Shown: piece by piece, positions 16,471-32,502 of the stretch
Numbering within the stretch: position 1 is the stretch's first letter
How the letters are laid out: each line of letters opens with the position of its first letter
IMG/VR virus record: IMGVR_UViG_3300042503_001656
Coordinates: 1-64,000 of that record
DNA: 64,000 nt
Direction: 5' to 3' (one strand)
Origin: a virus
The notes under the pieces: model-generated
Told to the model about the DNA's origin: nothing
The model's input: only the letters and a program-made list of their open reading frames with translations
Database searches by the model: none
Position numbers and translations under genes: made by a program

Positions 16471-16486
16471 TGTTTCACGTGAAACA
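16471..16486. promoter_or_regulatory. parS site (exact consensus)
   Basis: TGTTTCACGTGAAACA, the 16-bp chromosomal ParB-binding palindrome conserved across bacteria. It sits between two divergent cassette promoters. Confidence 0.9.
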
Positions 16487-16516
16487 TTTTGCCCGACAAG
16501 AGCCCCGATGGCTAAC

Positions 16517-16546
16517 TTGTCGGGCAAGGGTGGGTCGTGATAATGT
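16517..16546 (+). promoter_or_regulatory. Cassette promoter
   Basis: TTGTCG, 18-bp spacer GGCAAGGGTGGGTCGTGA, TAATGT, 7 nt to ATG 16554. Confidence 0.8.
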
Positions 16547-16553
16547 GATGTGT

Positions 16554-16784
16554 ATGGAAACAGCGACAACACTCACCAACATTCAGATGCTCCTTATGAT
16601 TGAGCGCATAATGAACGCCTGCGAGCAACGCACGGAATGGGACGACACGACAAAGAAAGTGTTCCTCTCAATGCACACTGCGTGGCACGCGCTCGTGGAC
16701 GCAAACACGCTCTCGGTGTTCAAGGAAGAAACCCAAGCGTCCTACACGCACCCAGACAGCAACGCATTCATCACTTGGGATTAG
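16554..16784 (+). CDS. Small helical protein with METATT start, 76 aa
   Basis: METATTLTNIQMLLMIERIM ... WHALVDANTLSVFKEE; two helices, unknown. Start set by promoter spacing; the longer ORF would begin inside parS. Confidence 0.7.
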   Translation: METATTLTNIQMLLMIERIMNACEQRTEWDDTTKKVFLSMHTAWHALVDANTLSVFKEETQASYTHPDSNAFITWD

Positions 16785-16851
16785 GAGCCCAACACGAAGC
16801 ACCCACGGGTGTTTCGTGAACAAAAGCCCCGTTCCCGTGAGTTCGGCTGAT

Positions 16852-16881
16852 TTGTCGGCTAAGGGTGGGTCGGTGTAAGGT
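16852..16881 (+). promoter_or_regulatory. Cassette promoter
   Basis: TTGTCG, 18-bp spacer GCTAAGGGTGGGTCGGTG, TAAGGT, 6 nt to ATG 16888. Confidence 0.8.
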
Positions 16882-16887
16882 TTGGGT

Positions 16888-17196
16888 ATGGAAACAACAG
16901 CGACAACAAAAGCAGCAATCATCGCAGAATGGTACGACAACCGTTTTGGTGCAGAAGTGTTCGGAGCACTCATCAACATTCTCCGTCTCGCAGGAGCAAC
17001 GGAGTTCACAATCCCAACTGCTTGGCTTGACTTTCAGCCCAACGGTCAGGAAGGCGAGATTGCTTTCCGCTTCGCTCACACGCTCTCTTGGGAGAACGGT
17101 GAGACAGCACCAGTCATCAAGGCTCTCCGTGAAGTAGCCCGTATCAAGTCGGTGGACTGGGACACAGACGCTCCGAGAGATTGGGACTACGACTAG
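16888..17196 (+). CDS. Hypothetical protein, 102 aa
   Basis: METTATTKAAIIAEWYDNRF opening shares the repeated METTATT start. The rest (FRFAHTLSWENGETAPVIKAL ... WDTDAPRDWDYD) is globular with an acidic tail. Monocistronic. Confidence 0.7.
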   Translation: METTATTKAAIIAEWYDNRFGAEVFGALINILRLAGATEFTIPTAWLDFQPNGQEGEIAFRFAHTLSWENGETAPVIKALREVARIKSVDWDTDAPRDWDYD

Positions 17197-17203
17197 TCCC
17201 AAC

Positions 17204-17233
17204 TTGTCGGCTAAGGGTGGGGTGAACTAAGGT
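17204..17233 (+). promoter_or_regulatory. Cassette promoter
   Basis: TTGTCG, 18-bp spacer, TAAGGT, 6 nt to ATG 17240. Confidence 0.8.
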
Positions 17234-17239
17234 ATGGGT

Positions 17240-17437
17240 ATGACATCAACAGCGAAATGGATTAGCGAACTCCCAACAGTAGAGGAGTGCGACAAGGAGA
17301 TTGCTCGCCTCTCTCACTGGCTGGAAACAAAGCGATACGAGATGAGCGCACGAGAGGCAGTTGCCCTCGCTGACCGTATTCGCACTTGGGAGAAAAAGCG
17401 CATTTGGGCGAGACGCTACGGAAAGTGTGACTACTGA
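17240..17437 (+). CDS. Hypothetical helical protein, 65 aa
   Basis: MTSTAKWISELPTVEECDKE ... ADRIRTWEKKRIWARRYGK; strongly helical with a basic C-terminus. Coupled to the next gene by a TGATG overlap. Confidence 0.65.
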   Translation: MTSTAKWISELPTVEECDKEIARLSHWLETKRYEMSAREAVALADRIRTWEKKRIWARRYGKCDY

Positions 17438-17613
17438 TGAAGAAGTACAGCGCAACAATCTCTCTGTTCATTGACGAGTTTGAGGCAGAGGACAGGGAGA
17501 GTGCTAGGGCGATTGTCGGCAAATACATTGACCACCTCATTGACATTTGTGAGGTCAATGAGGGCGAACTCACTTGGGGTGGGGTAGACGAGTCAATAGA
17601 AGAAGAACAGTAA
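17437..17613 (+). CDS. Hypothetical protein, 58 aa
   Basis: MKKYSATISLFIDEFEAEDR, with the beta-strand-then-helix pattern F-x-[AE]-E-[DN]-x-x-x-A shared with genes at 40004 and 40392, typical of the small family of phage proteins that begin with a Y/V-x-A-T-I-x-[LV] strand. Start overlaps the upstream stop. Confidence 0.65.
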   Translation: MKKYSATISLFIDEFEAEDRESARAIVGKYIDHLIDICEVNEGELTWGGVDESIEEEQ

Positions 17614-17629
17614 GAGAGACGGGGCTCTC

Positions 17630-17776
17630 TTACTTCTTTTTCTTTATCGTGTAGCCGTTTGCTTTGAGGTCTTTGACTATCCGTTCTGGAATGCCACCCC
17701 AAATGGGGATACCAGAAGAGGCCAGTGAGCGAGCGATAATGTCAAGCTTTTTCTTACGGTGGAGTTGTCTGAACAT
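17630..17776 (-). CDS. Possible 48-aa basic protein
   Basis: MFRQLHRKKKLDIIARSLAS ... IPERIVKDLKANGYTIKKKK. Converges on the upstream plus gene and ends in a GAGAGCCCCGTCTCTC hairpin. No clear promoter or RBS, so support is moderate. Confidence 0.45.
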   Translation of the reverse strand: MFRQLHRKKKLDIIARSLASSGIPIWGGIPERIVKDLKANGYTIKKKK

Positions 17777-17795
17777 TCTGAAAGCATACAACGAT

Positions 17796-17825
17796 TTGTC
17801 GGCCTGGGGTGGGGTGGGCTAAGAT
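17796..17825 (+). promoter_or_regulatory. Cassette promoter
   Basis: TTGTCG, 18-bp spacer, TAAGAT, 6 nt to ATG 17832. Confidence 0.8.
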
Positions 17826-17831
17826 TTAGGT

Positions 17832-18011
17832 ATGGACAGCGACAAAGACCTGATGGAAATACTGGAACAGATAGAGAAGATTATGCGCCCACTGGCCGAG
17901 TGCTGTGGGAAAATCCCACAAGGCGTATGGTTAGAGCGCACCTACTGCGTTTACTGCGAGATGAGTGCCGAGTGGTGCCAGTGTGATGTGTCCGACTTCT
18001 GCGACTGCTAG
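17832..18011 (+). CDS. Cys-rich small protein, 59 aa
   Basis: MDSDKDLMEILEQIEKIMRP then AECCGK, YCVYCEM, WCQCDVSDFCDC: eight cysteines in the C-terminal half, probably a zinc or Fe-S site. Monocistronic and leaderless-type. Confidence 0.7.
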   Translation: MDSDKDLMEILEQIEKIMRPLAECCGKIPQGVWLERTYCVYCEMSAEWCQCDVSDFCDC

Positions 18012-18077
18012 CAATCGGCCAGACATCTGACGGCCTTGCTACGCAGGCACGAGGCCGGGGCTACGTGCCTGCGTGAT

Positions 18078-18107
18078 TTGTCGGTCGAGGGTGGGTCGGA
18101 GTAATGT
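18078..18107 (+). promoter_or_regulatory. Cassette promoter
   Basis: TTGTCG, 18-bp spacer GTCGAGGGTGGGTCGGAG, TAATGT, 6 nt to ATG 18114. Confidence 0.8.
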
Positions 18108-18113
18108 GTGTGT

Positions 18114-18431
18114 ATGGAAACAAACAGCACATACCCAACACCCGAAGCCCAAGCAGTAGCCGAAGGCACAACCGTTCACGAGAGTGGAGCAATCTCTCTC
18201 GACAACCCAGCAAGCATTGAGCACTTGCGTTTCGTGAGCGCAATCAGCGCACTCTCACTCGAAGCAAAGACGGGAATGAAAATGACCCGAGTCCCAATGA
18301 CACGCTTTTGCCGTGAGAACTACGGAACAACGAAGCGCACCCTGAAGGGTTGCTTGCGTGAGATGCTCGACCTCTACAAAGAGGTGTACGGGCGTGAGAG
18401 CGAGTTTGAGAAGTCCTACAGCCAACTGTAG
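18114..18431 (+). CDS. Hypothetical protein, 105 aa
   Basis: METNSTYPTPEAQAVAEGTT opening. The second half (LEAKTGMKMTRVPMTRFCRE ... TTKRTLKGCLREMLDLYKEV) is helical and basic and could bind nucleic acid. Followed by a clear terminator. Confidence 0.7.
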   Translation: METNSTYPTPEAQAVAEGTTVHESGAISLDNPASIEHLRFVSAISALSLEAKTGMKMTRVPMTRFCRENYGTTKRTLKGCLREMLDLYKEVYGRESEFEKSYSQL

Positions 18432-18436
18432 GACTC

Positions 18437-18466
18437 TCGACCACAGGAACGGCAGCCTGTGGTCGA
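18437..18466 (+). terminator. Terminator hairpin
   Basis: TCGACCACAGG/CCTGTGGTCGA, 8-nt loop, directly after the 18431 stop. Confidence 0.65.
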
Positions 18467-18501
18467 CAAACCCCCCTGAGCCCCGGCTATTGGGGGTTTG
18501 T
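18466..18501. terminator. GAGCCCCG-loop palindrome merging into the next promoter
   Basis: ACAAACCCCC pairs with GGGGGTTTGT; the right arm contains the first bases of the next -35 (TTGTCG). Confidence 0.55.
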
Positions 18502-18527
18502 CGGTTTGGGGTGGGTACTGATAAAGT
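18498..18527 (+). promoter_or_regulatory. Cassette promoter
   Basis: TTGTCG, 18-bp spacer, TAAAGT, 6 nt to a GTG start at 18534. Confidence 0.8.
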
Positions 18528-18533
18528 GGAATC

Positions 18534-18773
18534 GTGAACAGCAAGCCAAACTCAATTTTTGACATTTTCGTAGACGGTTGCGAATGCGACAACTGCCAAG
18601 AGAAAGTGTCAAAGCCAGACCTATTCGCCAACATCATCACGGTCAATGGAAAAAGCTCCATTCAGGTGTTCAACAGCGATTACAAGCATTTAGAAGCAGT
18701 CAAGTACTCAAGTATCTTTGATGCTATGGCAGTCATCAGAGAGAACGGTCTAACGCTCCTAGCGTCCATCTGA
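18534..18773 (+). CDS. Hypothetical protein, 79 aa
   Basis: GTG start fixed by promoter spacing. MNSKPNSIFDIFVDGCECDN with a CxC..C pair, then strand-rich segments (SSIQVFNSDYKHLEAVKYSS). Coupled by ATG overlap to the next gene. Confidence 0.7.
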   Translation: MNSKPNSIFDIFVDGCECDNCQEKVSKPDLFANIITVNGKSSIQVFNSDYKHLEAVKYSSIFDAMAVIRENGLTLLASI

Positions 18774-18985
18774 TGACATACAACGAGTTTCTATTCCAAT
18801 TCATCAAGAGCCTTCCCAATGACGGAGAGACACGCATTGGACAGCATTACTTCAACACGCTCAACGAAGTACGGCCAGAAATAGCCAAGAGAATAAGAGC
18901 GATGAAGATTGACCCGTTCTATTTGAACTCAGTCCCCGAAGAAACGGAAAAGGTCGTACGGGGCTTATGGGAGCAGAAGCTGTGA
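18773..18985 (+). CDS. Hypothetical protein, 70 aa
   Basis: TGATG overlap with the upstream stop. LFQFIKSLPNDGETRIGQHYFNTL ... ERGLWEQKL-like helical end. Resembles short helical phage proteins with conserved R-x-G-Q-x-x-F; not identified. Confidence 0.65.
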   Translation: MTYNEFLFQFIKSLPNDGETRIGQHYFNTLNEVRPEIAKRIRAMKIDPFYLNSVPEETEKVVRGLWEQKL

Positions 18986-18987
18986 AC

Positions 18988-19017
18988 TTGTCGGTTTGGG
19001 GTGGGGTGAACTAATCT
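18988..19017 (+). promoter_or_regulatory. Cassette promoter
   Basis: TTGTCG, 18-bp spacer GTTTGGGGTGGGGTGAAC, TAATCT, 6 nt to ATG 19024. Confidence 0.8.
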
Positions 19018-19023
19018 GTGTGT

Positions 19024-19152
19024 ATGGACAGCGATTACCAAAACGAATACCAAGACCATTGCGAAGACCTCGCAAACTCTTTCCTCTGTGACACGGCAGA
19101 ACCAAAAGAACAGCCCGATTACGGAGACATTGAGAGCGATGGAGTTTTCTAA
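19024..19152 (+). CDS. 42-aa acidic protein
   Basis: MDSDYQNEYQDHCEDLANSF ... GDIESDGVF, acidic; leaderless-type start and TAATG coupling to the next gene. Confidence 0.6.
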   Translation: MDSDYQNEYQDHCEDLANSFLCDTAEPKEQPDYGDIESDGVF

Positions 19153-19505
19153 TGGGAGCATTTGAGCAAGCACAAGAAGAGATGTGGAGAAACGCCGTGA
19201 GCGTTCGCATCTCACCGATTGACCTTCCCGATGAACCAATGAGCGAATGGATGTGGGATGTTGAGATTGTCGTTCCAAATAATCAGTGGGAGAACTCTGA
19301 TGAAGATGGGAACTTCACGATTGAGCAATGTGGCATTGACTCTTTTCATTCGCTTGAGTCAGCTTTTGAGTGGGCGTACAAGTGGCTCAAGGGTCGTGGC
19401 TATGATGTCTCCAACATTGAACTTTCATTGACCTCAATGGTGGGCAGTGGGATTACTCACAACAACGATTTACAAAAAGTTATGGAAGCGAGAACAAATG
19501 CTTGA
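19152..19505 (+). CDS. Hypothetical protein, 117 aa
   Basis: MGAFEQAQEEMWRNAVSVRI; contains DSFHSLESAFEWAYKWLKGRG, an amphipathic helix bearing paired aromatics. Coupled to both neighbours by start/stop overlaps, giving a four-gene operon 19024-20031. Not recognised. Confidence 0.7.
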   Translation: MGAFEQAQEEMWRNAVSVRISPIDLPDEPMSEWMWDVEIVVPNNQWENSDEDGNFTIEQCGIDSFHSLESAFEWAYKWLKGRGYDVSNIELSLTSMVGSGITHNNDLQKVMEARTNA

Positions 19506-19878
19506 GGCATTGCCAAAGGAATGTAGTGAGTGCGGGGCTCACTACCCATCACACCAGCAAGAAGGTCGCTTTATTGACTACGGGTGGTCTTTCAACTACC
19601 TCACTCTCGGTCACTACGGAGGATTTACCGATTGCGTTCCCGACAGGGGAGATGATTGGGATGATGAGAAATACATTGTCCACCTTTGCCACGATTGCTG
19701 TCTGAAACTAATACGGGCATTGCCTAGTGTCTTTAGAAAAGCTCTCGGTGACTTAGGTTGTCATCCAGGCAATGTCGGACAGCCAGCGTGCTGTGAGTAT
19801 GCGTGGACAACAGACAATTCAGGCTTTCACTACAGAGGGTCGGCTGATGGCTCTTGGACTTTGGTTGGTAAGGACTGA
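19498..19878 (+). CDS. Cys/His-rich protein, 126 aa
   Basis: ATG 19498 overlaps the upstream stop (ATGCTTGA). CSECGAHYPSH, HLCHDCCLKL and GCHPG...CCEYAW give several zinc-type ligand pairs. A perfect 8-bp hairpin with the GGGGCT loop sits inside the coding sequence at 19523-19545. Function unknown. Confidence 0.75.
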   Translation: MLEALPKECSECGAHYPSHQQEGRFIDYGWSFNYLTLGHYGGFTDCVPDRGDDWDDEKYIVHLCHDCCLKLIRALPSVFRKALGDLGCHPGNVGQPACCEYAWTTDNSGFHYRGSADGSWTLVGKD

Positions 19879-19893
19879 TGTACCATTGAGTAC

Positions 19894-20031
19894 ATGAGTG
19901 AAGAGCAACAGCCAAAAGAACAGCCACAAAAAGCTGAGAAAAAAGTTACCGAGGTGAACATCACCAAGCCCCGTCCCGGGAAGCTAAGGACAACAGTTAT
20001 TCGGAAGGTTTGTTGCCGTCGCGGAAGATAA
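19894..20031 (+). CDS. 45-aa basic protein
   Basis: MSEEQQPKEQPQKAEKKVTE followed by a basic tail (KLRTTVIRKVCCRRGR). Its last 35 bp overlap the converging membrane-protein gene, so it is only moderately supported. Confidence 0.45.
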   Translation: MSEEQQPKEQPQKAEKKVTEVNITKPRPGKLRTTVIRKVCCRRGR

Positions 20032-20218
20032 GCCACTGTCCGTAGCAAGAGTTGAGAACAGCGCACAAAATAAGAATTATCGCTAATACTGTCCCTACAA
20101 AGAAAGACATGTAAGCGATAACAAGACTCAATCCAATGTGAAGCAACCCCTTCATGACGGGGTCTTCAGGAATCCATCTATCAATAACTGAAATCAGCTT
20201 TTCCAATGGTTTCTCCAC
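19997..20218 (-). CDS. Small two-helix membrane protein, 73 aa
   Basis: Amphipathic N-terminus (MEKPLEKLISVIDRWIPED), then hydrophobic stretches GLLHIGLSLVIAYMSFFVGT and VLAIILILCAVLNSCYG, a holin-like layout; the true holin candidate is at 54.8 kb. Last gene of a minus-strand trio. Confidence 0.65.
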   Translation of the reverse strand: MEKPLEKLISVIDRWIPEDPVMKGLLHIGLSLVIAYMSFFVGTVLAIILILCAVLNSCYGQWLIFRDGNKPSE

Positions 20219-20433
20219 TGACTAGGTGAATGACCTTCCTCAGCCTCTGCTTTATCTTCCGGAGATTCATAAAGACGAATGGCGTGGATACATGGGTCTC
20301 CACCTTCTTCCCACATTTCTTCTTCTGCTTTTGTCTGTGGCAATCCGTCATGGGTTTCGCAAAGAGGTGGTGAACACCAACCTTGTTGCATGCCATAGGT
20401 AATCCATTCGTCAAAGTTGTTTATCTCGGCCAT
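20194..20433 (-). CDS. Conserved small phage protein, 79 aa
   Basis: MAEINNFDEWITYGMQQGWC ... PPLCETHDGLP ... EGGDPCIHAIRLY. The W-C-[ST]-x-P-x-C-x-T-H-D-G signature recurs in actinophage hypothetical proteins and is probably a metal site. Overlaps the downstream membrane-protein start. Confidence 0.75.
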   Translation of the reverse strand: MAEINNFDEWITYGMQQGWCSPPLCETHDGLPQTKAEEEMWEEGGDPCIHAIRLYESPEDKAEAEEGHSPSQWRNHWKS

Positions 20434-20442
20434 GTCTAATCC

Positions 20443-20649
20443 TTAGAAAAGTGTTGGGTCATTGTCTACGCCGTCTTTGACGCAGTACTCATGAATGTAT
20501 CGGAAATCTTCTGTAATTATTGAATGGACGCTTCTGCCTTTTCCCTTCAACCAAACCGTAGCTTGCCGGACGACAGTGCTCGAGTTTCTATCTAAGGGAT
20601 GGCCACACTTCTCACAATAATAAAGCGATGGCATTTTCATGGTTCGCAT
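20443..20649 (-). CDS. Zinc-finger small protein, 68 aa
   Basis: MPSLYYCEKCGHPLDRNSST with CxxC near the start and HEYC later as likely second ligand pair. First gene of the minus-strand trio; no cassette promoter seen. Confidence 0.65.
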   Translation of the reverse strand: MRTMKMPSLYYCEKCGHPLDRNSSTVVRQATVWLKGKGRSVHSIITEDFRYIHEYCVKDGVDNDPTLF

Positions 20650-20653
20650 CTTA

Positions 20654-20676
20654 TAGGAATAGCCCCGCTATTCCTA
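20654..20676. terminator. CCCCG-loop palindrome
   Basis: TAGGAATAG/CTATTCCTA, 9-bp perfect stem, loop CCCCG. Confidence 0.6.
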
Positions 20677-20698
20677 CACACAGGGAGAAGGGCGAAAC

Positions 20699-20729
20699 TT
20701 GTCGGCTAAGGGTGGGGTCTTGCTAAACT
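20699..20729 (+). promoter_or_regulatory. Cassette promoter (leadered gene)
   Basis: TTGTCG, 19-bp spacer, TAAACT; a ~40-nt leader with AGCGAAAGGAAAAGCA precedes GTG 20776. Confidence 0.75.
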
Positions 20730-20775
20730 GGCAAAGCCGAAAGGCACACAGCGAAAAACAGCGAAAGGAAAAGCA

Positions 20776-21129
20776 GTGGCACTTACAGCACAGGAACTTG
20801 CGAAGCTCCCGATTTGGGAAGCAGAAGCGTTCGGGCGTTGGCTCGCAGGCGAAGCGTTTGATGACGGTTCTGACGATTATTACGATTCTTCCGAGGGAGA
20901 ACTTTACGCCGAGTTCGTCTCATCTTGGGTTTCGGGTGGAGGTCTTTACTCTGACGCCTCTCGGGCGTGGAATTCAGGTATCGCTCACCGTAACGGTTAC
21001 GCTTCAGCTCCCGAGGGAGATTACGAGGAACGCCCTGATTGGCTTCCTCGTTACGGCACCCCTGAATGGGAAGCTTACGAGCTTGCGATGGACGCACGAG
21101 ATTACATGGAAGAAATGCGAGGTTATTAG
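20776..21129 (+). CDS. Hypothetical protein, 117 aa
   Basis: GTG start with AAAGGAAAAG upstream. MALTAQELAKLPIWEAEAFG; rich in Asp/Glu, Tyr and Trp, with RPDWLPRYGTPEWEAYELAM. Not recognised. Confidence 0.7.
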   Translation: MALTAQELAKLPIWEAEAFGRWLAGEAFDDGSDDYYDSSEGELYAEFVSSWVSGGGLYSDASRAWNSGIAHRNGYASAPEGDYEERPDWLPRYGTPEWEAYELAMDARDYMEEMRGY

Positions 21130-21130
21130 G

Positions 21131-21313
21131 ATGCGAGCGATTCACAACACACCAATTCCCGACGAGCAAGAGTTCCCTATCCCCGACGATTGCGTTTGCG
21201 ACGGTGACGAGCTTTGCGAAGCTTGTCAGCGTGTCATCGCCGACGACCTGCGTCAGCAGGAGGAAGAGGAGGCGGGGCTCCTCTTGTACTTGTCGGTTGA
21301 GGGTGGGGACTAA
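21131..21313 (+). CDS. Acidic Cys-containing protein, 60 aa
   Basis: CVCDGDELCEACQR gives a CxC..CxxC set. The last 17 codons are written by the GGGGCT palindrome and the next promoter (ending LYLSVEGGD), so this gene's 3' end doubles as the intergenic regulatory unit. Confidence 0.65.
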   Translation: MRAIHNTPIPDEQEFPIPDDCVCDGDELCEACQRVIADDLRQQEEEEAGLLLYLSVEGGD

Positions 21314-21319
21314 TAAAAT
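21290..21319 (+). promoter_or_regulatory. Cassette promoter inside the upstream gene
   Basis: TTGTCG, 18-bp spacer, TAAAAT, 6 nt to ATG 21326. Confidence 0.8.
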
Positions 21320-21325
21320 TAGGTC

Positions 21326-21529
21326 ATGCTGATAACGACATATTGCAAAAACGAAAAGTGCGCTGAATTTGAGAACGACTTTGACGACCAAGAAGTTGAT
21401 TTAGACGGCGATTACACACTCAAGGATTGGGTTGAGTACGAATGGGATTGCCCAGAGTGTGGAGAGACCAGCACCCACTATGAGCAAGCGAAAGACCTGC
21501 ATCATGGTTATTGGTCAGATGACTACTAA
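21326..21529 (+). CDS. Zinc-ribbon protein, 67 aa
   Basis: MLITTYCKNEKCAEFENDFD ... WDCPECGETSTHYE; CxxxxC and CxxC pairs form a rubredoxin/zinc-ribbon knuckle around an acidic strand. Function unknown. Confidence 0.7.
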   Translation: MLITTYCKNEKCAEFENDFDDQEVDLDGDYTLKDWVEYEWDCPECGETSTHYEQAKDLHHGYWSDDY

Positions 21530-21552
21530 CCGATAGCGCAATGCTTGTTGCG

Positions 21553-21590
21553 CTATCTAAAGGTATAGACGGGGCTATACCTTTAGATAG
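21553..21590. terminator. 16-bp palindrome with ACGGGG loop, bidirectional
   Basis: CTATCTAAAGGTATAG/CTATACCTTTAGATAG perfect, between converging genes. Confidence 0.75.
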
Positions 21591-21591
21591 A

Positions 21592-21903
21592 TTATCGCAG
21601 AGCTTCTTTTCCTTCTTCAGTGATTTCGCAAACCTGCATCGCCGAACCGGCCGAAGAAGGTCGAGTTTCACCGGTGGGAACAATCAAGCCGTTAGCACGA
21701 AGTTCTGAGCACCTCTTCCAATAGCAACACTTTGGCTTCGAAGCAAGTCCAGTGGCTATGCCAGCTTCCTCATCAGTTAGACCACCGTGTAAATATTCAG
21801 CAAGTAACAGCATCGCTTGTGAGCGTTTACGAGGCTTGACATCTTCAGCACCCATCGCCGAAGTGGCCGGGTCTGCACTACGAAACATTGGTAAGTCGTT
21901 CAT
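21592..21903 (-). CDS. Winged-helix regulator-like protein, 103 aa
   Basis: LLAEYLHGGLTDEEAGIATGL (helix 2-3) ... CSELRANGLIVPTGETRPSS ... QVCEITEEGKEALR, the pattern of small phage winged-helix proteins in which the wing follows LRxxGLI. Probably DNA binding. Confidence 0.7.
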   Translation of the reverse strand: MNDLPMFRSADPATSAMGAEDVKPRKRSQAMLLLAEYLHGGLTDEEAGIATGLASKPKCCYWKRCSELRANGLIVPTGETRPSSAGSAMQVCEITEEGKEALR

Positions 21904-21965
21904 AAGTTTCCTTCATCTATTTGTTTTCAAGTCTAAACATTATGCCAAGCGTTTGAACATCTGTC

Positions 21966-22008
21966 AATCTCACCACTACGGGAGCCCCGCCCCCGTAGTG
22001 GTGAGATT
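21966..22008. terminator. 17-bp palindrome with AGCCCCGCC loop
   Basis: AATCTCACCACTACGGG/CCCGTAGTGGTGAGATT; the last stem base is the first base of the next -35. Confidence 0.7.
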
Positions 22009-26689: not shown

Positions 26690-26706
26690 CGCAGCAAAAT
26701 TCCGGT

Positions 26707-26731: not shown

Positions 26732-26745
26732 AGGTCGTCAAGAGT

Positions 26746-26775: not shown

Positions 26776-26781
26776 AAAGAC

Positions 26782-26994: not shown

Positions 26995-27123
26995 CAAAAA
27001 TTCCGGCAGCGGAAAACACGCAGCAGCGCAGCACAAGCAACGAGCTGCACGCAGCACAAGTAACGGCAGCAGTTATTACGGCAGCACAAAACACTGCGGC
27101 ACAAACCAGGCAGCAATGCGGCC

Positions 27124-27160
27124 ATACATAGGTGCATAGCCCCGCTATGCACCTATGTAT
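27124..27160. terminator. 16-bp palindrome with CCCCG loop
   Basis: ATACATAGGTGCATAG/CTATGCACCTATGTAT, perfect; directly abuts the next -35. Confidence 0.75.
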
Positions 27161-27190
27161 TTGTCGGCTTGGGGTGGGTAGTGCTAAGGT
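27161..27190 (+). promoter_or_regulatory. Cassette promoter
   Basis: TTGTCG, 18-bp spacer, TAAGGT, 6 nt to ATG 27197. Confidence 0.8.
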
Positions 27191-27196
27191 AAAGAC

Positions 27197-27409
27197 ATGG
27201 CAACAGCGAAAACAAAAAAACTCAAAGTTCAAGATGTAGTTGGCAACGAAGTGCGTTTGCACTCTCAGCTGTGGATACAGGGATACTGTGACGGTATCTG
27301 CACTGGCTACGACAGCAAGCGTGGAGTGTTCTTCTTCCGTCGTCATGGCCAGCAACTTGATGAGGGTACTTACGAAGTACGCAACATCTCACAGTTTGAA
27401 TTGCTGTAA
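27197..27409 (+). CDS. Small beta-barrel-like protein, 70 aa
   Basis: MATAKTKKLKVQDVVGNEVR ... GYCDGICTGYDSKRGVFFFR: basic start followed by SH3-like strands. Unknown. Confidence 0.65.
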   Translation: MATAKTKKLKVQDVVGNEVRLHSQLWIQGYCDGICTGYDSKRGVFFFRRHGQQLDEGTYEVRNISQFELL

Positions 27410-27510
27410 GGGAATGAGGGAACCGAAAGGTTCCCTTTACCCGTATTGAGCCCCGGTATTGGCTGCATCGATTGCGCAGCAGAAATCACTGCGGCACAAA
27501 AGTACTGCTG

Positions 27511-27711
27511 CTAGTCTTCCGGCAAATCGTCGTATTCGTCGAGCCTGGAGATAAGGTCAGCTTTCTCTTCTTCGGTCATCGACAGTGCAGCTTCGCTTGG
27601 CCGGTACACCCACTCCCCATCTTCTCTCATTGCTACATCGAGCAGCCCGGCTTTCACCATCAGGTATAAGTCGCGGGCCAGGTCATCAGTTGTGTATTCG
27701 CTATTTGCCAT
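27511..27711 (-). CDS. Small winged-helix-like protein, 66 aa
   Basis: DDLARDLYLMVKAGLLDVAM ... DGEWVYRPSEAALSMTEEEK; shares the LxxxGLL..DGxW.Y..MTEEE pattern with 9291-9575. Isolated minus gene in the plus-strand array. Confidence 0.6.
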   Translation of the reverse strand: MANSEYTTDDLARDLYLMVKAGLLDVAMREDGEWVYRPSEAALSMTEEEKADLISRLDEYDDLPED

Positions 27712-27761
27712 CCAGGCAGCATAGACCGGATGGCAGCAAAAACACGGGGCTCAAAACAGAT

Positions 27762-27791
27762 TTGTCGGTTAGGGGTGGGGGGTAGTAAGGT
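27762..27791 (+). promoter_or_regulatory. Cassette promoter driving structured RNA A
   Basis: TTGTCG, 18-bp spacer GTTAGGGGTGGGGGGTAG, TAAGGT; no protein gene follows. Confidence 0.75.
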
Positions 27792-27798
27792 GGTTCTT

Positions 27799-28006
27799 GT
27801 GAGGGAGACCCACCGCCTCTCCTCCGATACAACCGAATCGCACCAGTCCCTCCGCAGGATAAGGCTCTGGACAGCAAGCCTCTGATGGGCGTACGACCAT
27901 CAAGCATCCGCCACAGTCCACCCGTCCTCCCTCTCGCGCGATAACTGCTCTAGGCTCGGGGGTGCTAGCCCCAGTATCGGAGGTGGGGCGGGGGGTCTTT
28001 TTCTTT
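27799..28006 (+). ncRNA. Structured RNA A (novel family, paralogue of RNA B)
   Basis: About 208 nt from the predicted start of transcription to a T-run. The ends pair: GACCCACCGCC (27806-27816) with GGCGGGGGGTC before TTTTTCTTT, and CTCCGATAC (27822-27830) with GTATCGGAG. Internally it contains GGATAAGGCTCTGG, CCGTCCTCC and GGGGGTGCTAGCCCC. RNA B at 29433 keeps these blocks and the closing helices but with different paired bases, and the shared GGATAAGGCTCT lies in different frames in the two, which argues against coding. Not a family I recognise. Confidence 0.7.
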
Positions 28007-28036
28007 GTGCCAAAAGCGGGGCTTGGCACAAAGAAA
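28000..28036. terminator. GGGGCT-loop palindrome after RNA A
   Basis: TTTCTTTGTGCCA/TGGCACAAAGAAA. Confidence 0.7.
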
Positions 28037-28038
28037 GT

Positions 28039-28068
28039 TTGTCGGTCGTGGGTGGCCTGTTCTAAGAT
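28039..28068 (+). promoter_or_regulatory. Cassette promoter
   Basis: TTGTCG, 18-bp spacer GTCGTGGGTGGCCTGTTC, TAAGAT, 6 nt to ATG 28075. Confidence 0.8.
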
Positions 28069-28074
28069 TGTCTT

Positions 28075-28377
28075 ATGAAAACAACAGCGAACAACGAAAC
28101 AAGGGCAGCAATGAACGCTGCGTATCTAAACCCATTCGTCACGACATTGACTCTTGACGAAGTGCCGCACAAACGCAAATACACAAAAGAGCTGCGGGCT
28201 GGAGATTTCGTGGCCGTGTTTGTCAGCACCTCTCAGAAAGTTTGGGAAGGCTATTTTTCTTGGAAAGAAATCCGGACGATTGCTGCGACCCCCCAGGCCT
28301 ATGTCCTGAAGTTCACAGACGGAACAGACGAACGACACCCAAAGTTCTCAGCAGGTAAATGGGAAGTGATGAAATAA
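28075..28377 (+). CDS. Hypothetical protein, 100 aa
   Basis: MKTTANNETRAAMNAAYLNP ... LRAGDFVAVFVSTSQKVWEG: helix then SH3-like beta strands. Unknown. Confidence 0.7.
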   Translation: MKTTANNETRAAMNAAYLNPFVTTLTLDEVPHKRKYTKELRAGDFVAVFVSTSQKVWEGYFSWKEIRTIAATPQAYVLKFTDGTDERHPKFSAGKWEVMK

Positions 28378-28408
28378 CCCGCCGGAAATTCCGGCAGCCG
28401 CACGCACG

Positions 28409-28431
28409 AGTGGCTAGCCCCGCTAGCCACT
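28409..28431. terminator. CCCCG-loop palindrome
   Basis: AGTGGCTAG/CTAGCCACT. Confidence 0.7.
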
Positions 28432-28458
28432 AATACGTGAGTGCTCCTCTTTCGTAAA

Positions 28459-28488
28459 TTGTCGGTTAGGGGTGGGTGGGTGTAATGT
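28459..28488 (+). promoter_or_regulatory. Cassette promoter
   Basis: TTGTCG, 18-bp spacer, TAATGT, 7 nt to ATG 28496. Confidence 0.8.
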
Positions 28489-28495
28489 TGGAGAC

Positions 28496-28792
28496 ATGAA
28501 CACAACAGCAACAACACACACACAGTCAGCCCAACTAATTGACGATGCAACCCGTGAGGGTCGCCTCTATCACTTCAACGGTGGGCAGGCATACATCAAA
28601 GCAAGTGAGGACGATGTTCTCCTAATCATTGACATGACACAGGAAACACCCGACTTCACTTACCACTATGGTGAGTTTGCCTCTAACTACTTCCGTAACA
28701 ACCACCCACAGCCCACAGACAGGGAACCACTTGTTCCGTTCTACGCAGAAGTGGACAAAAGAAAATTGTCGGTTCAGGGTGGGAAGAACTAA
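28496..28792 (+). CDS. Hypothetical protein, 98 aa
   Basis: MNTTATTHTQSAQLIDDATR ... HYGEFASNYFRNNHPQP. Its 3' codons (LSVQGGKN) are formed by the next gene's promoter. Confidence 0.7.
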   Translation: MNTTATTHTQSAQLIDDATREGRLYHFNGGQAYIKASEDDVLLIIDMTQETPDFTYHYGEFASNYFRNNHPQPTDREPLVPFYAEVDKRKLSVQGGKN

Positions 28793-28795
28793 GAT
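28766..28795 (+). promoter_or_regulatory. Cassette promoter inside the upstream gene
   Basis: TTGTCG, 18-bp spacer, TAAGAT, 6 nt to ATG 28802. Confidence 0.8.
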
Positions 28796-28801
28796 AGAGA
28801 C

Positions 28802-28984
28802 ATGGAAACAGCACAAGCATTCATCATCGTCACTTGGTTCTTGGTCAAGTGTGCAGGACTCGCAATCTTTGCAGTCGGCGCATACACCACTATCCAATGG
28901 ATTAGGAAAAATGTCTCATTCTTCACTTACGAAGATGTAGACCCATCAGAAGACCCCGACTGGGTTCGGGAAAACTACGGATAA
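28802..28984 (+). CDS. Small membrane protein, 60 aa
   Basis: METAQAFIIVTWFLVKCAGL AIFAVGAYT forms one or two transmembrane helices; acidic cytoplasmic tail (EDVDPSEDPDW). Unknown. Confidence 0.65.
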   Translation: METAQAFIIVTWFLVKCAGLAIFAVGAYTTIQWIRKNVSFFTYEDVDPSEDPDWVRENYG

Positions 28985-29051
28985 CAATCCGTAGACAGCG
29001 ACAGCGAGAAAGTTCTTGCTCCCAGTTTGTCGCTGTACTGGTTGAGCAGAA

Positions 29052-29085
29052 AGAGAAAGAGTCACTTTCGGGTGGCTCTTTCTCT
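29052..29085 (+). terminator. Intrinsic terminator
   Basis: AGAGAAAGAGTCAC pairs with GTGGCTCTTTCTCT. Confidence 0.75.
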
Positions 29086-29109
29086 ATGTGGAGCCCCGGT
29101 TCTCCGGAC

Positions 29110-29313
29110 AAAAAGAAAGAGCCCCAGCAATAAAGCTGAAGCTCTTCTCTCCTTGTGACTCACCATTAGAGCTCTCAAGGAAGAGCTTATGTCTGGTCGT
29201 GAGCCAATCCAGCAAGGGGGACTTCCTTACCCGATAGTTGGTATCTGCCGATGTCCCTAACCCAATCGAGCTAAGTACGGTTTCGTTCCTCAACAGCAGT
29301 GTCCCTGACTGAT
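29110..29313 (-). ncRNA. Candidate minus-strand small RNA
   Basis: Bounded by a consensus promoter at 29320-29348 and an imperfect 10-bp hairpin (GAGCTTCAGC/GCTGGGGCTC) followed by TTTCTTTTT. Any ORF here would start upstream of the predicted transcription start, so noncoding is more likely. Lies between structured RNAs A and B. Confidence 0.4.
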
Positions 29314-29319
29314 AGGTAA

Positions 29320-29348
29320 ACATTACCAGCATTTCTCCAGCTTGTCAA
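29320..29348 (-). promoter_or_regulatory. Consensus sigma-A-type promoter
   Basis: TTGACA, 17-bp spacer, TAATGT on the minus strand; unlike the cassette type. Confidence 0.5.
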
Positions 29349-29396
29349 CTCAAATAGTCACGGCCTCAATCTAGGCAACGGGGCTCATTTCCCGAT

Positions 29397-29426
29397 TTGT
29401 CGGGTCAGGGGGGGTGGTGATAAATT
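29397..29426 (+). promoter_or_regulatory. Cassette promoter driving structured RNA B
   Basis: TTGTCG, 18-bp spacer GGTCAGGGGGGGTGGTGA, TAAATT. Confidence 0.75.
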
Positions 29427-29432
29427 GGTCTT

Positions 29433-29641
29433 GTGAGCGAGGCTCTTCGCCTCTCCCACACACAACATAAGTGCATAGTCTCCCTTCTGGATAAGGCTCT
29501 TGTCACTGCGATAGTCCCTCCACTCTCCGGAAGTGCGATACTCCCTCCAGTCAGACAATCCGTCCTCCTCTGAATAGACCTCTCCTTATGGGGGTGACGA
29601 CCTCGTGTGTGGGTGGGGCGAAGGGGCTCGCTCTTTCTTTT
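29433..29641 (+). ncRNA. Structured RNA B (paralogue of RNA A)
   Basis: About 209 nt. Closing helix GAGCGAGGCTCTTCGCC pairs with GGCGAAGGGGCTCGCTC, followed by TTTCTTTTA; the inner helix CCACACAC/GTGTGTGG replaces the CTCCGATAC/GTATCGGAG of RNA A, i.e. compensatory change. Shared unpaired or junction blocks: CGCCTCTCC, GGATAAGGCTCT, CCGTCCTCC, GGGGGTG, GGTGGGGCG. Same promoter type and same length as RNA A. Confidence 0.7.
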
Positions 29642-29674
29642 ACATAGGGGCAAGCCCCGTCTTGCCCCTATGTA
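29641..29674. terminator. 14-bp palindrome with CCCCGT loop
   Basis: TACATAGGGGCAAG/CTTGCCCCTATGTA; directly followed by a parS-like site. Confidence 0.75.
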
Positions 29675-29690
29675 TATTTCACGTGAAACA
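29675..29690. promoter_or_regulatory. parS-like site (one mismatch)
   Basis: TATTTCACGTGAAACA versus TGTTTCACGTGAAACA; lies 6 bp before the next -35. Confidence 0.75.
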
Positions 29691-29696
29691 TTGGAC

Positions 29697-29726
29697 TTGT
29701 CGGTCAGGGGTGGGTGCGACTAAGGT
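29697..29726 (+). promoter_or_regulatory. Cassette promoter
   Basis: TTGTCG, 18-bp spacer GTCAGGGGTGGGTGCGAC, TAAGGT, 6 nt to ATG 29733. Confidence 0.8.
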
Positions 29727-29732
29727 GGGGGT

Positions 29733-30035
29733 ATGGAAACAGCAACAACATTGGAAACATCAGTCGGCAACCAACTCCCAAAGGGAAACGGCTCATTCTC
29801 GGTCACTACGATTGTCAATGGACTGATTATCACGCCAAGCAACTCATCAGCGATTAGTCAAATCAACTACCTCGCTGATGACAGCGTTCTTGTCGTGACA
29901 TACAGCAACGGTGGTATGTACCACTACAAAGAAGTCCCAGCAACGGTGGTATTCCACTTATTGGTTGCCGAGAGTTTTGGAAAGTTCATCAACGCACACA
30001 TCAAGCCACACTACGAGTTTCGCAAAATCTGGTAA
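29733..30035 (+). CDS. KTSC-domain protein, copy 1
   Basis: 100 aa. METATTLETSVGNQLPKGNG leader region, then SSAISQINYLADDSVLVVTY ... MYHYKEVPATVVFHLLVAES ... GKFINAHIKPHY, matching the KTSC domain (PF13619; short domain found in phage and lysyl-tRNA-synthetase-associated proteins, function unknown). About 70% identical by eye to copy 2 at 30565. Confidence 0.8.
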   Translation: METATTLETSVGNQLPKGNGSFSVTTIVNGLIITPSNSSAISQINYLADDSVLVVTYSNGGMYHYKEVPATVVFHLLVAESFGKFINAHIKPHYEFRKIW

Positions 30036-30050
30036 CAAGTCCCCCCAATA

Positions 30051-30087
30051 GATAGCCCCACCTGATACCCCGTCAGGTGGGGCTATC
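30051..30087 (+). terminator. Intrinsic terminator
   Basis: GATAGCCCCACCTGA/TCAGGTGGGGCTATC followed by GCTTTATT. Confidence 0.8.
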
Positions 30088-30088
30088 G

Positions 30089-30125
30089 CTTTATTACGGG
30101 GAAGCCCCGTTTCCCCGTAATAAAG
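30089..30125. terminator. GCCCCG-loop palindrome
   Basis: CTTTATTACGGGGAA/TTCCCCGTAATAAAG. Confidence 0.75.
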
Positions 30126-30127
30126 AT

Positions 30128-30157
30128 TTGTCGGTCAGGGGTGGGCCGCGATACAGT
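30128..30157 (+). promoter_or_regulatory. Cassette promoter
   Basis: TTGTCG, 18-bp spacer, TACAGT, 6 nt to ATG 30164. Confidence 0.8.
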
Positions 30158-30163
30158 GGAGAC

Positions 30164-30379
30164 ATGAGCAGCGACACAACATACACAGAACAGCAGTACG
30201 GAACCATTGAGGAAGTTTGCATAGAACACGCCGTGTTTGGTTTCATTGAGGAGTACGGCCTGGTGGAGTCAGACTTCATCAAATGGGCTTCCGACAACGG
30301 CGTGAGCTATGAGGACTTACTGGACAACATGTACGACCACATCGACGACTTTGTGAAGGACTTGTCCACTTCTCGATAA
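30164..30379 (+). CDS. Hypothetical acidic helical protein, 71 aa
   Basis: MSSDTTYTEQQYGTIEEVCI ... GFIEEYGLVESDFIKWASDN. Acidic, helical; start set by promoter spacing. Confidence 0.7.
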   Translation: MSSDTTYTEQQYGTIEEVCIEHAVFGFIEEYGLVESDFIKWASDNGVSYEDLLDNMYDHIDDFVKDLSTSR

Positions 30380-30386
30380 GGCCGCC

Positions 30387-30425
30387 AGCCCTGACCGATT
30401 CCTCCTGGTCGGTCAGGGCTTTATT
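30387..30425 (+). terminator. Intrinsic terminator
   Basis: AGCCCTGACCGA/TCGGTCAGGGCT then TTATTC. Confidence 0.8.
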
Positions 30426-30506
30426 CTCTCCTGAGCCCCGATTGTCCTGGTAAGAGAGTTCCATAACGAGACTGTACGAACGTACGTACGGGGCTCCCGT
30501 AGGGAG

Positions 30507-30522
30507 TGTTTCCCGTGAAACA
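30507..30522. promoter_or_regulatory. parS-like site (one mismatch)
   Basis: TGTTTCCCGTGAAACA, 6 bp before the next -35, the same placement as at 29675. Confidence 0.75.
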
Positions 30523-30528
30523 TTGGAT

Positions 30529-30558
30529 TTGTCGGTTAGGGGTGGGTTGTAATAAAGT
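30529..30558 (+). promoter_or_regulatory. Cassette promoter
   Basis: TTGTCG, 18-bp spacer GTTAGGGGTGGGTTGTAA, TAAAGT, 6 nt to ATG 30565. Confidence 0.8.
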
Positions 30559-30564
30559 GGGGGT

Positions 30565-30861
30565 ATGGAAACAGCAACAACATTAGAAACATCACTCGGC
30601 AACCAACTTCCTTCGGGCAACGGTACTTTCACTGTCCTTGACAGTGGAAACCTCATCATCAGACCAACCTCATCAGCAATCAGCAAAGTCAATTACCTCA
30701 TTGACTCGCAAGTACTTGTTGTGAAATACAACGGCAGTGAGACCAAATACTTCTATCGGAATGTTCCCGTAGCAGTGGCGTTCCACCTGCTAATCGCTGA
30801 CAGTTTCGGCAAGTTCATCAACGCTCACATCAAGCCCAACTACGAGTTCTGGACAAGTTAG
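30565..30861 (+). CDS. KTSC-domain protein, copy 2
   Basis: 98 aa. METATTLETSLGNQLPSGNG, then SSAISKVNYLIDSQVLVVKY ... KYFYRNVPVAVAFHLLIADS ... GKFINAHIKPNYEF. The whole unit (parS-like site, promoter, N-terminus, KTSC, terminator) repeats that of copy 1, so it arose by duplication of the cassette. Confidence 0.8.
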   Translation: METATTLETSLGNQLPSGNGTFTVLDSGNLIIRPTSSAISKVNYLIDSQVLVVKYNGSETKYFYRNVPVAVAFHLLIADSFGKFINAHIKPNYEFWTS

Positions 30862-30880
30862 CCCCACCAGTCCCCCAACA

Positions 30881-30919
30881 GATAGCCCTACCCGATACTC
30901 CTAGTCGGGTAGGGCTATC
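30881..30919 (+). terminator. Intrinsic terminator
   Basis: GATAGCCCTACCCGA/TCGGGTAGGGCTATC then GCTTTT; homologous to that after KTSC copy 1. Confidence 0.8.
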
Positions 30920-30925
30920 GCTTTT

Positions 30926-30955
30926 CCCATAGGGAAGCCCCGCTGCCCCTATGGG
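30926..30955. terminator. GCCCCG-loop palindrome
   Basis: CCCATAGGG/CCCTATGGG. Confidence 0.65.
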
Positions 30956-30962
30956 AGTGGAC

Positions 30963-30992
30963 TTGTCGGCTTGGGGTGGGTGCTGCTAAATT
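30963..30992 (+). promoter_or_regulatory. Cassette promoter
   Basis: TTGTCG, 18-bp spacer, TAAATT, 6 nt to ATG 30999. Confidence 0.8.
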
Positions 30993-30998
30993 GGAGTT

Positions 30999-31271
30999 AT
31001 GGAAACAAACAGCGAAATCAGCACCGCCCACCTTCCCCACTTCTGTGGTGAAACTTGTATGTTGGAAGCCGAGCAAGTTGGCTACTTCACGGGTGACGAT
31101 TGGGTAAATACCGAGCAAGAGTTCACCCACGAGAATCCCCATTGCGATTGGTGTGGCGAGTCTGATGATGACGGTGATGAAGATTCAGCGTGGGCAGACG
31201 CAGACGCATTACGCTCTATCGGTTGGGGTGATGACGAGGATTATGGATACTGTGGTGGTGACGACTACTAA
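30999..31271 (+). CDS. Acidic Cys-rich protein, 90 aa
   Basis: METNSEISTAHLPHFCGETC ... HCDWCGESDDDGDE ... WADADALRSIGWGDDEDYGY. Shares both its N-terminal NSEI and its WADxxALxxIGWGDDEDY tail with 13052-13285. Probable metal site; function unknown. Confidence 0.7.
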   Translation: METNSEISTAHLPHFCGETCMLEAEQVGYFTGDDWVNTEQEFTHENPHCDWCGESDDDGDEDSAWADADALRSIGWGDDEDYGYCGGDDY

Positions 31272-31383
31272 GTAACAGGGGAAGGTTAGCCTTCCCCTTA
31301 TTCTCTGCCTGAGTCCCGTTTGCTGCTGTGACTAAGTCTCTTTACAGAACTGTACGAACATACGTACGGGGCTCCGGATGAAC

Positions 31384-31413
31384 TTGTCGGCCTGGGGTTG
31401 GCCCTGGTAGTGT
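31384..31413 (+). promoter_or_regulatory. Cassette promoter, diverged spacer
   Basis: TTGTCG, 18-bp spacer GCCTGGGGTTGGCCCTGG, TAGTGT, 6 nt to ATG 31420. Confidence 0.7.
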
Positions 31414-31419
31414 CTGGGT

Positions 31420-31596
31420 ATGGAAAAAACAGTGACTATCCCGTACGCGCTACTACTCGAACTCTATGAGTCCCAGGTGTACGATGCGTACTACAACCCC
31501 CAGACAATCTACGGCCCTGGGCGACCAGAAGCCCTGGAGTTCATTGCCAAGATGAATGAGTTCGTGGCCGAGCAAGACCAATACGAAGAAGAGTAA
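31420..31596 (+). CDS. Hypothetical protein, 58 aa
   Basis: MEKTVTIPYALLLELYESQV ... RPEALEFIAKMNEFVAEQDQ. Helical. Followed by AAAGCCC/GGGCTTT and the 31627 palindrome. Confidence 0.65.
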   Translation: MEKTVTIPYALLLELYESQVYDAYYNPQTIYGPGRPEALEFIAKMNEFVAEQDQYEEE

Positions 31597-31626
31597 CCAA
31601 AGCCCTGGCCTAGCAGCTGGGGCTTT

Positions 31627-31658
31627 ATCTCTATTGGAGCCCCGTCTCCAATAGAGAT
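31627..31658. terminator. 13-bp palindrome with CCCCGT loop
   Basis: ATCTCTATTGGAG/CTCCAATAGAGAT. Confidence 0.75.
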
Positions 31659-31672
31659 ACCCCCGACAAGAT

Positions 31673-31702
31673 TTGTCGGGCAGGGGTGGGTCGGTCTAAG
31701 AT
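31673..31702 (+). promoter_or_regulatory. Cassette promoter
   Basis: TTGTCG, 18-bp spacer, TAAGAT, 6 nt to ATG 31709. Confidence 0.8.
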
Positions 31703-31708
31703 GGAGGC

Positions 31709-32017
31709 ATGACATCAACAGCGATTCAGTATCAAACAGCACAACACGACCTTCCAATGCCAAAGGGCAACGGAACATTTATTGTCTTTGCAGACGGAAC
31801 CCTAATGGGTCACCCCGAATCATCGGCAGTAGCAGAATGGAACTACCTTGTCCACACGGCAACGCTTGTAGTGGAATACAAGGGAAGCCCCAAGCAATAC
31901 TTCTACGAAGAAGTACCTTCCTACAAGGTCTTCCAAATGCTCGCCAGCGAAAGCATTGGGGCTTTCATCGCCAAGGCAATCAAGCCACACCATCAAGTGT
32001 GGTCGCCCGAGCGCTAA
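31709..32017 (+). CDS. KTSC-domain protein, copy 3 (diverged)
   Basis: 102 aa. LPMPKGNGTFIVFADGTLMG, SSAVAEWNYLVHTATLVVEY, QYFYEEVPSYKVFQMLASES, GAFIAKAIKPHH. Same layout as copies 1 and 2 but a different N-terminus (MTSTAIQYQTAQHD). Confidence 0.8.
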   Translation: MTSTAIQYQTAQHDLPMPKGNGTFIVFADGTLMGHPESSAVAEWNYLVHTATLVVEYKGSPKQYFYEEVPSYKVFQMLASESIGAFIAKAIKPHHQVWSPER

Positions 32018-32041
32018 TCCCAACAGTTCCCCCCAAGAACG

Positions 32042-32076
32042 GAGAGCCCACCCACCCCCATTTGGGTGGGCTTCTC
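32042..32076 (+). terminator. Intrinsic terminator
   Basis: AGCCCACCCA/TGGGTGGGCT within GAGA/TCTC. Confidence 0.65.
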
Positions 32077-32157
32077 TGCTTGTGAGCCCCGTTGCAGCCA
32101 GGGAGACCGCTGCACCCCCGGACACGAAGCAGCAGCTGCGGGGCTATAAATCACGAT

Positions 32158-32187
32158 TTGTCGGGCAGGGGTGGGGGTTGCTAAGGT
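32158..32187 (+). promoter_or_regulatory. Cassette promoter
   Basis: TTGTCG, 18-bp spacer, TAAGGT, 6 nt to ATG 32194. Confidence 0.8.
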
Positions 32188-32193
32188 GGAGGT

Positions 32194-32502
32194 ATGACAA
32201 CAGCGAAGAGCACGCAGAATGTTTCACGTGAAACATTTGAGCGAATCAGTGAAGCGGCCGAAGAATTGCGTAAAGCACTCAAGGCCTTGAACCCAGAGAC
32301 AGGGCAACTGCCCTCCTACAGCAATCCTCACCCACGAGGATGGACATCGTCTTGGGATGTCGCCCGACCTTGGGATGACACGACAATCTCCAATGCAGTC
32401 CACTACGCATTCGCCCTCATCCTTGACGAGGGCTGGGAAGACGAGATGGCCGAGAAGCAGGCCGAACTTGACGAGTTCAACAAGGAAGACGAGGAGGGAT
32501 GA
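32194..32502 (+). CDS. Hypothetical protein with parS in its 5' end, 102 aa
   Basis: MTTAKSTQNVSRETFERISE: the NVSRETF codons are the parS palindrome. Helical C-terminus (DEMAEKQAELDEFNKEDEEG). ATGA-coupled to the next gene. Confidence 0.7.
   Translation: MTTAKSTQNVSRETFERISEAAEELRKALKALNPETGQLPSYSNPHPRGWTSSWDVARPWDDTTISNAVHYAFALILDEGWEDEMAEKQAELDEFNKEDEEG
32220..32235. promoter_or_regulatory. parS site (exact consensus) inside a gene
   Basis: TGTTTCACGTGAAACA, starting 26 bp into the coding sequence, about 2.3 kb before the ParA-like gene. Confidence 0.9.

Follow-up and report, generated by a model that had tools for sequence, protein, structure and literature searches.

What would read the parS sites of a bacterial chromosome on a phage genome that encodes no parS-reading protein of its own? 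The question is raised by the window, a 64,000-nt stretch that makes up positions 1 to 64,000 of the 118-kb IMG/VR virus record IMGVR_UViG_3300042503_001656 and that carries four exact or near-exact parS sites. The answer favoured here, held with as much doubt as belief, is that the four sites would be working parS for the host chromosomal ParB, and that the unintegrated phage genome would use the host ParABS system for its positioning or inheritance.

The four sites

The 16-bp palindrome TGTTNCACGTGAAACA is the consensus of chromosomal parS (PMC7022226). A scan of the window with TGTTTCACGTGAAACA recovers exact matches at 16471-16486 and 32220-32235 and single-mismatch copies at 29675-29690 (TATTTCACGTGAAACA) and 30507-30522 (TGTTTCCCGTGAAACA), the same two exact and two imperfect sites that an earlier, sequence-only reading of the window had placed there. 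Nothing further appears in the window at up to three mismatches, and no fifth parS is found in the 118-kb record at up to two. Dinucleotide shuffles of the window (n = 100), searched at up to three mismatches, contain a mean of 0.53 matches, and none of the 100 reaches four. The sites are clustered within 15.8 kb, and three of the four are intergenic.

Two divergent promoters flank the site at 16471, which is part of the 20-bp palindrome AATGTTTCACGTGAAACATT. The sites at 29675 and 30507 each stand upstream of a KTSC-domain paralogue on the plus strand, at 29733-30035 (PF13619, E 4e-16) and 30565-30861 (PF13619, E 3e-11). Because the genes downstream are paralogous and the surroundings are similar, these two sites probably represent one duplicated cassette and are not independent. 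A third paralogous small gene with a KTSC domain lies at 31709; all three have their own promoter copy, and two have a parS-like site. The site at 32220 is the one that is not intergenic: it falls within the 5' end of a small plus-strand open reading frame (ORF) of unassigned function, 32194-32502, where it supplies the codons for NVSRET about 60 bp past the -35 element of that gene.

Candidate readers

parS is read by HTH_ParB, a helix-turn-helix (HTH) domain, and none of the 38 family records searched (the record of the window and 37 relatives) has one; a control search is positive in 9 of 14 known genomes. The sequence-only reading had seen no ParB in the window. That observation stands for the window, whereas a parB search of the rest of the record reveals a gene with a ParB_N domain and no HTH at record positions 97335-98141 (minus strand; L127 13335-14141). 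This gene is rejected as the parS reader, as it lacks HTH_ParB; it falls within phage ParB-like families. Phage ParB-fold proteins are often fused to domains other than HTH, according to a 2025 survey (PMC12704722). The gene lies in a region with a terminase gene, a RuvC-like gene and a PAPS-reductase-like gene, and inspection by eye suggests perhaps a second ParB_N protein at record positions 95262-95816 (minus strand; L127 11262-11816).

A ParA-like protein is encoded at 34492-35064 (plus strand), 2.3 kb downstream of the nearest parS. It is about 190 amino acids long, has a conserved R-x-IDAG motif, and has a predicted ParA/MinD fold (pLDDT 74) that matches ParA, Soj and MinD structures; the signature lysine is present and the P-loop lysine is missing (KGGLGTTT). 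The gene occurs in many family members independently of parS. Across 50 records, parS-bearing G004, G006, G015 and G053 lack it, while parS-less G018, G025, G036 and G038 have it, and it is rejected as a parS partner on this distribution. The phage thus has neither an HTH-bearing ParB nor a parS-linked ParA of its own, as a self-contained ParABS system would, and a host ParB is, on present sequence evidence, the plain candidate for the reader of the sites.

Retention among relatives

The sequence-only reading held that the sites would be in doubt if close relatives lacked them, and relatives retain them. G002, a near-identical phage of 148 kb (99% relative), has all four sites, and at its counterpart of 29675 the mismatch private to the window is replaced by an exact match. 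For comparison with 30507, L131 has an exact site in front of a KTSC-type gene, and the site at 32220 is retained in both L131 and L129. The more distant relatives G001 and G003, at 77% for the ParA-like protein, each have three sites, and G004 and G005 have one each.

A wider family of 80 loci was reached through a conserved AAA ATPase. parS is present in 11 of 50 further family records and in 17 of 56 overall; many family records are fragments, which makes absence of parS weaker evidence than presence. Nine of the 17 parS-bearing records have the T type (G006 has a hybrid form, TGTTTCACGTGGAACA, in addition) and eight have the symmetric C type, TGTTCCACGTGGAACA. On the ATPase tree, a quick tree with moderate support, the T type is found in the clade of the window and in G045/G048, the C type in two groups, and neither in the large remaining clade.

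The palindrome is conserved where its surroundings are not. L225 and L229 carry different operators upstream of the same gene, and their parS sites are identical at 16/16 positions within diverged flanks; between L131 and L036, parS is likewise retained while the promoter-operator is replaced. The two-sided change that produces TGTTCCACGTGGAACA is symmetric and fixed in two related branches, as expected for a site read by a dimer, which supports its reading as parS. The 16/16 identity amid diverged flanks, the swapped operators and the symmetric variant in sister branches together point to selection on the palindrome as a palindrome. Because relatives keep the sites through promoter-operator swaps, and because the imperfect site at 29675 is exact in the near-identical relative, the four window sites look like real parS. 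The genes that follow parS differ between clades; sequence and general placement are kept and the accompanied gene is not. This pattern speaks for a part played by the DNA molecule as a replicon more than for control of a single gene, a role at promoters being possible as well.

The phage family and its host

The rest of the record encodes a terminase, portal, tail sheath, ThyX, SSB, WhiB, exonuclease and helicase, gene content that identifies it as a contractile-tailed phage. The family most likely comprises large (about 150 kb) contractile-tailed phages of actinobacteria: judged by the tail sheath, most of the closest cultured phages are actinophages, and a WhiB gene is present. No DNA-level relatives were found among cultured phages, and single proteins match cultured phages at 30-43%.

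A single-sequence search of genome contigs finds no family member. The best match of a profile search is a 50% ATPase homologue on a contig of an Acidimicrobiaceae metagenome-assembled genome (MAG), with no parS nearby and no repeated operators; this homologue is probably chromosomal and gives a weak hint of the host. TGTTYCACGTGRAACA occurs at least once in 35 of 60 genomes of the class of that MAG, the T, C and hybrid forms all being represented, and none of the 60 has the reversed control pattern. The phages and the genomes of this actinobacterial class show the same three forms, consistent with a match of phage sites to their hosts. The claim of the sequence-only reading that the sites are parS read by a host chromosomal ParB is therefore well supported by the missing phage reader, the retention, the symmetric variant and the matching variants in the actinobacterial class, while the binding of ParB itself is putative.

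No tyrosine or serine integrase is found in any of 18 family records, several of which are 145-172 kb long, as would be the case for an episomal prophage. Matches to plasmid-type replication genes are limited to 'replication initiation' PHROG matches of one protein.

Proposed borrowing of host segregation machinery

ParB bound to CTP is loaded at parS, where it forms a closed clamp that slides along DNA, and accumulated ParB recruits ParA (PMC12704722). ParB also loads SMC, and in Corynebacterium glutamicum a single parS is sufficient and the nucleation zone covers 26 kb (PMC7083940). By analogy, host ParB-CTP clamps would load at the cluster between 16 and 32 kb upon infection and slide outward over the small-gene region. 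The cluster would then form one ParB domain, and the phage genome would come to resemble a chromosome origin on which host ParA, and probably SMC loaded by ParB, could act. With no integrase in 18 family records, the most economical benefit, and the most likely one, would be that an unintegrated genome is positioned, or faithfully passed on, while the infection is latent, slow or in a carrier state. Effects on nearby promoters might arise besides.

Three observations weigh against this explanation. At up to two mismatches, parS is missing from many of the family records, several long ones among them, and the trait must therefore be dispensable. No repressor or plasmid replication gene is confidently identified, and a latent or plasmid state is putative. 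Finally, the intergenic sites nearly always adjoin a promoter-operator, an arrangement that would also suit a regulatory role.

Promoters beside the sites

The sites at 29675 and 30507 end 6 bp upstream of the -35 element (TTGTCGG) of plus-strand promoters, and a minus-strand promoter that starts at 16470 has its -35 directly against the site at 16471 (0 bp). Re-measurement returns all three distances (6, 6 and 0 bp) as the sequence-only reading gave them. The site at 16471 also lies 30 bp upstream of a plus-strand promoter at 16517. These promoters belong to a repeated promoter-operator. The copy abutting parS (16435-16470, minus strand; TTGTCGG...GGGGTGGG...TAGGCT) reads a 51-codon ORF at about 16279-16434, and its divergent partner (16517-16553, plus strand) reads ORF 16554-16784. 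Pattern matches identify further plus-strand copies at 29697-29732 and 30529-30564, each 6 bp past a parS-like site, and at 32158-32193, upstream of the gene that contains the site at 32220. The pattern TTGTCGG-x(4-5)-GG[GT]T[GT]G has 45 matches between 11369 and 42440 of the window, most of which drive one small gene; a -10-like TAxxxT follows nearly always and a start codon usually (form TTGTCGG...GGGGTGGG...TAAGGT). The repeated operator differs in sequence from one related phage to another, for example TTGTTAGTCGTGCGTAACG, GGTGTAGCATGAC and GGCTGGAGTTTCCTA, which is reminiscent of the immunity-group operators of Cluster A mycobacteriophages.

Upstream of many promoter copies stands a hairpin whose loop is AGCCCCG or CGGGGCT; it commonly stops 0-6 bp short of the -35 and probably terminates the upstream gene. 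Between 16000 and 32000 of the window, the loop of these hairpins is constant and the stems are variable. At 29697, the gap between hairpin and -35 is 22 bp, a slot filled by parS and the 6 bp that follow it. Across the family, intergenic parS ends 0-13 bp upstream of the local promoter-operator, of which there are several sequences, at 14 of 15 sites inspected by eye, counts that are not independent, as sites and cassettes are duplicated and share common descent. In the G053 group, parS comes after the promoter and lies within the leader. The proximity of sites to promoters is real, and is partly explained by the short slot between terminator and -35 that they occupy.

Alternative explanations

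The main rival is promoter control, an unlikely but serious alternative in which ParB loaded beside a -35 would slide over the promoter and repress or tune early small genes, allowing the phage to sense ParB or the state of the cell cycle. The 0-13 bp spacing speaks for it, as it is kept at 14 of 15 intergenic sites in front of whichever operator is locally used. Precedent exists in Pseudomonas aeruginosa, where ParB represses genes that adjoin the intergenic sites parS3 and parS4 and where expression from a test promoter falls when parS is put in front of it (PMC7022226). KorB and VirB act from their sites in much the same manner. Yet the window has just three intergenic sites for 45 promoter copies, the genes downstream differ by clade, one site is intragenic, and the sites of the G053 group lie on the far side of the promoter. 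The slot between terminator and -35 is moreover the main untranscribed space in the region and would alone place sites near a -35.

Takeover or titration of ParB comes next and is a good deal less probable. Here, replicating phage genomes with multiple parS sites would pull ParB, and SMC with it, off the origin of the host, and the phage would gain from the resulting disturbance of chromosome segregation. Many of the sampled class genomes have only one exact site of this form against the four of the phage, so that a replicating phage would outnumber them, and ectopic parS can disturb segregation (PMC7083940). The sites per phage are, however, few (often one or two) and variable, and transcription is little affected by loss of ParB in several bacteria (PMC7022226).

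It is highly improbable that the palindrome is bound by a phage-encoded regulator with a specificity of its own. The sites do touch phage promoters, and the highly repeated operators of the family suggest that phage regulators probably exist. Nonetheless, the operators change between relatives while the palindrome is constant, and the palindrome matches consensus parS and naturally occurring variants of it, with enrichment in unrelated viruses of many different hosts. A hybrid partition system, in which the ParA-like protein at 34492-35064 would work with the sites and a host ParB, is marginally less probable again: the nearness of its gene to a site and its ParA/Soj/MinD-like predicted fold invite the idea, and the missing P-loop lysine and a presence that does not track parS count against it. 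Least probable of all is that the sites came along as passengers in captured small-gene cassettes and have no function in the phage, an idea suggested by the two sites in a duplicated cassette and the intragenic site, and opposed by the 16/16 retention amid diverging flanks and the symmetric variant.

parS in other viruses

Carriage of parS extends beyond this family, the site being strongly over-represented in viral contigs. An exact T-type site occurs in at least 120 IMG/VR stretches, compared with 1 and 11 for two shuffled palindromes of the same letters, and no HTH_ParB is found in 34 parS-bearing viral contigs of at least 30 kb. Among cultured phages, 473 records match parS at a permissive threshold, a number that includes chance matches near the limit; exact parS was verified in, among others, Gordonia phages Kampe and Sticker17, Lactobacillus phage Bacchae and Bacillus phage vB_BcoS-136. 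Four exact sites lie within about 1 kb in Bacillus phage vB_BcoS-136 (L255 2505-3510). The small 'bajarodino' viruses, which measure about 6 kb and in some cases have a Zot gene, show 10-12 strand-doubled parS places each.

A broader proposal is offered only tentatively, and is rather less likely than its opposite: that borrowing of host centromere proteins is a general and under-recognised phage strategy, in which many unrelated phages, some of them probably virulent, carry host-matching parS without ParB, and that in the family of the window the sites at -35 elements couple small-gene transcription to the segregation state of the host. If phages do borrow host ParB as favoured here for the window, non-integrating phages could ride host segregation by means of a 16-bp tag instead of partition genes of their own. 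It would help to explain the persistence of large phages in slow-growing actinobacteria and would connect phage biology with the loading of ParB-CTP clamps. Public collections include isolated phages of Gordonia, Lactobacillus and Bacillus that carry exact parS, making the idea directly testable.

Comparison with known systems

In C. glutamicum, nine of the ten parS sites are intergenic, the cluster spans no more than 35 kb and a single site suffices (PMC7083940). The sites of the window resemble these in their 16-bp sequence type, in their number and spread over tens of kilobases, and in being mostly intergenic with one in a gene; they differ in lying off the chromosome, beside neither oriC nor parAB. 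The phage-plasmid P1 and the extrachromosomal prophages of mycobacteria (PMC7157519) share with the window family the suggested benefit, partition of an unintegrated genome, and the lack of an integrase. They have their own ParA and ParB and private sites, whereas the window family has no parS-reading ParB. KorB and VirB (PMC7022226, PMC10676424) show how a ParB-type protein near a promoter could set expression, but these regulators are encoded by the element that bears their sites, and the record of the window encodes no HTH_ParB.

The closest counterpart is phi29, the only described phage whose parS is read by a host ParB in a literature search of partial coverage. Its genome is captured into spores through the host ParB, Spo0J (Meijer et al. 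2005, as cited in PMC9437464), and its record has a parS-type site, TGTTCCACGTGAAACA, in gene 15. phi29, with no described ParB, uses a host segregation protein; the window likewise carries parS-type sites, and HTH_ParB is missing from its record and from 37 relatives. In contrast, phi29 measures 19 kb and infects a spore-former, and the stretch considered has one parS-type site, with a role in spore entry, while the window family consists of phages of about 150 kb with up to four sites beside the promoters of small genes and with no sign of a sporulating host. The principle would be the same and the type of phage is another: the arrangement in the window family is multi-site, flanks promoters and is kept in several branches of the family with matching site variants.

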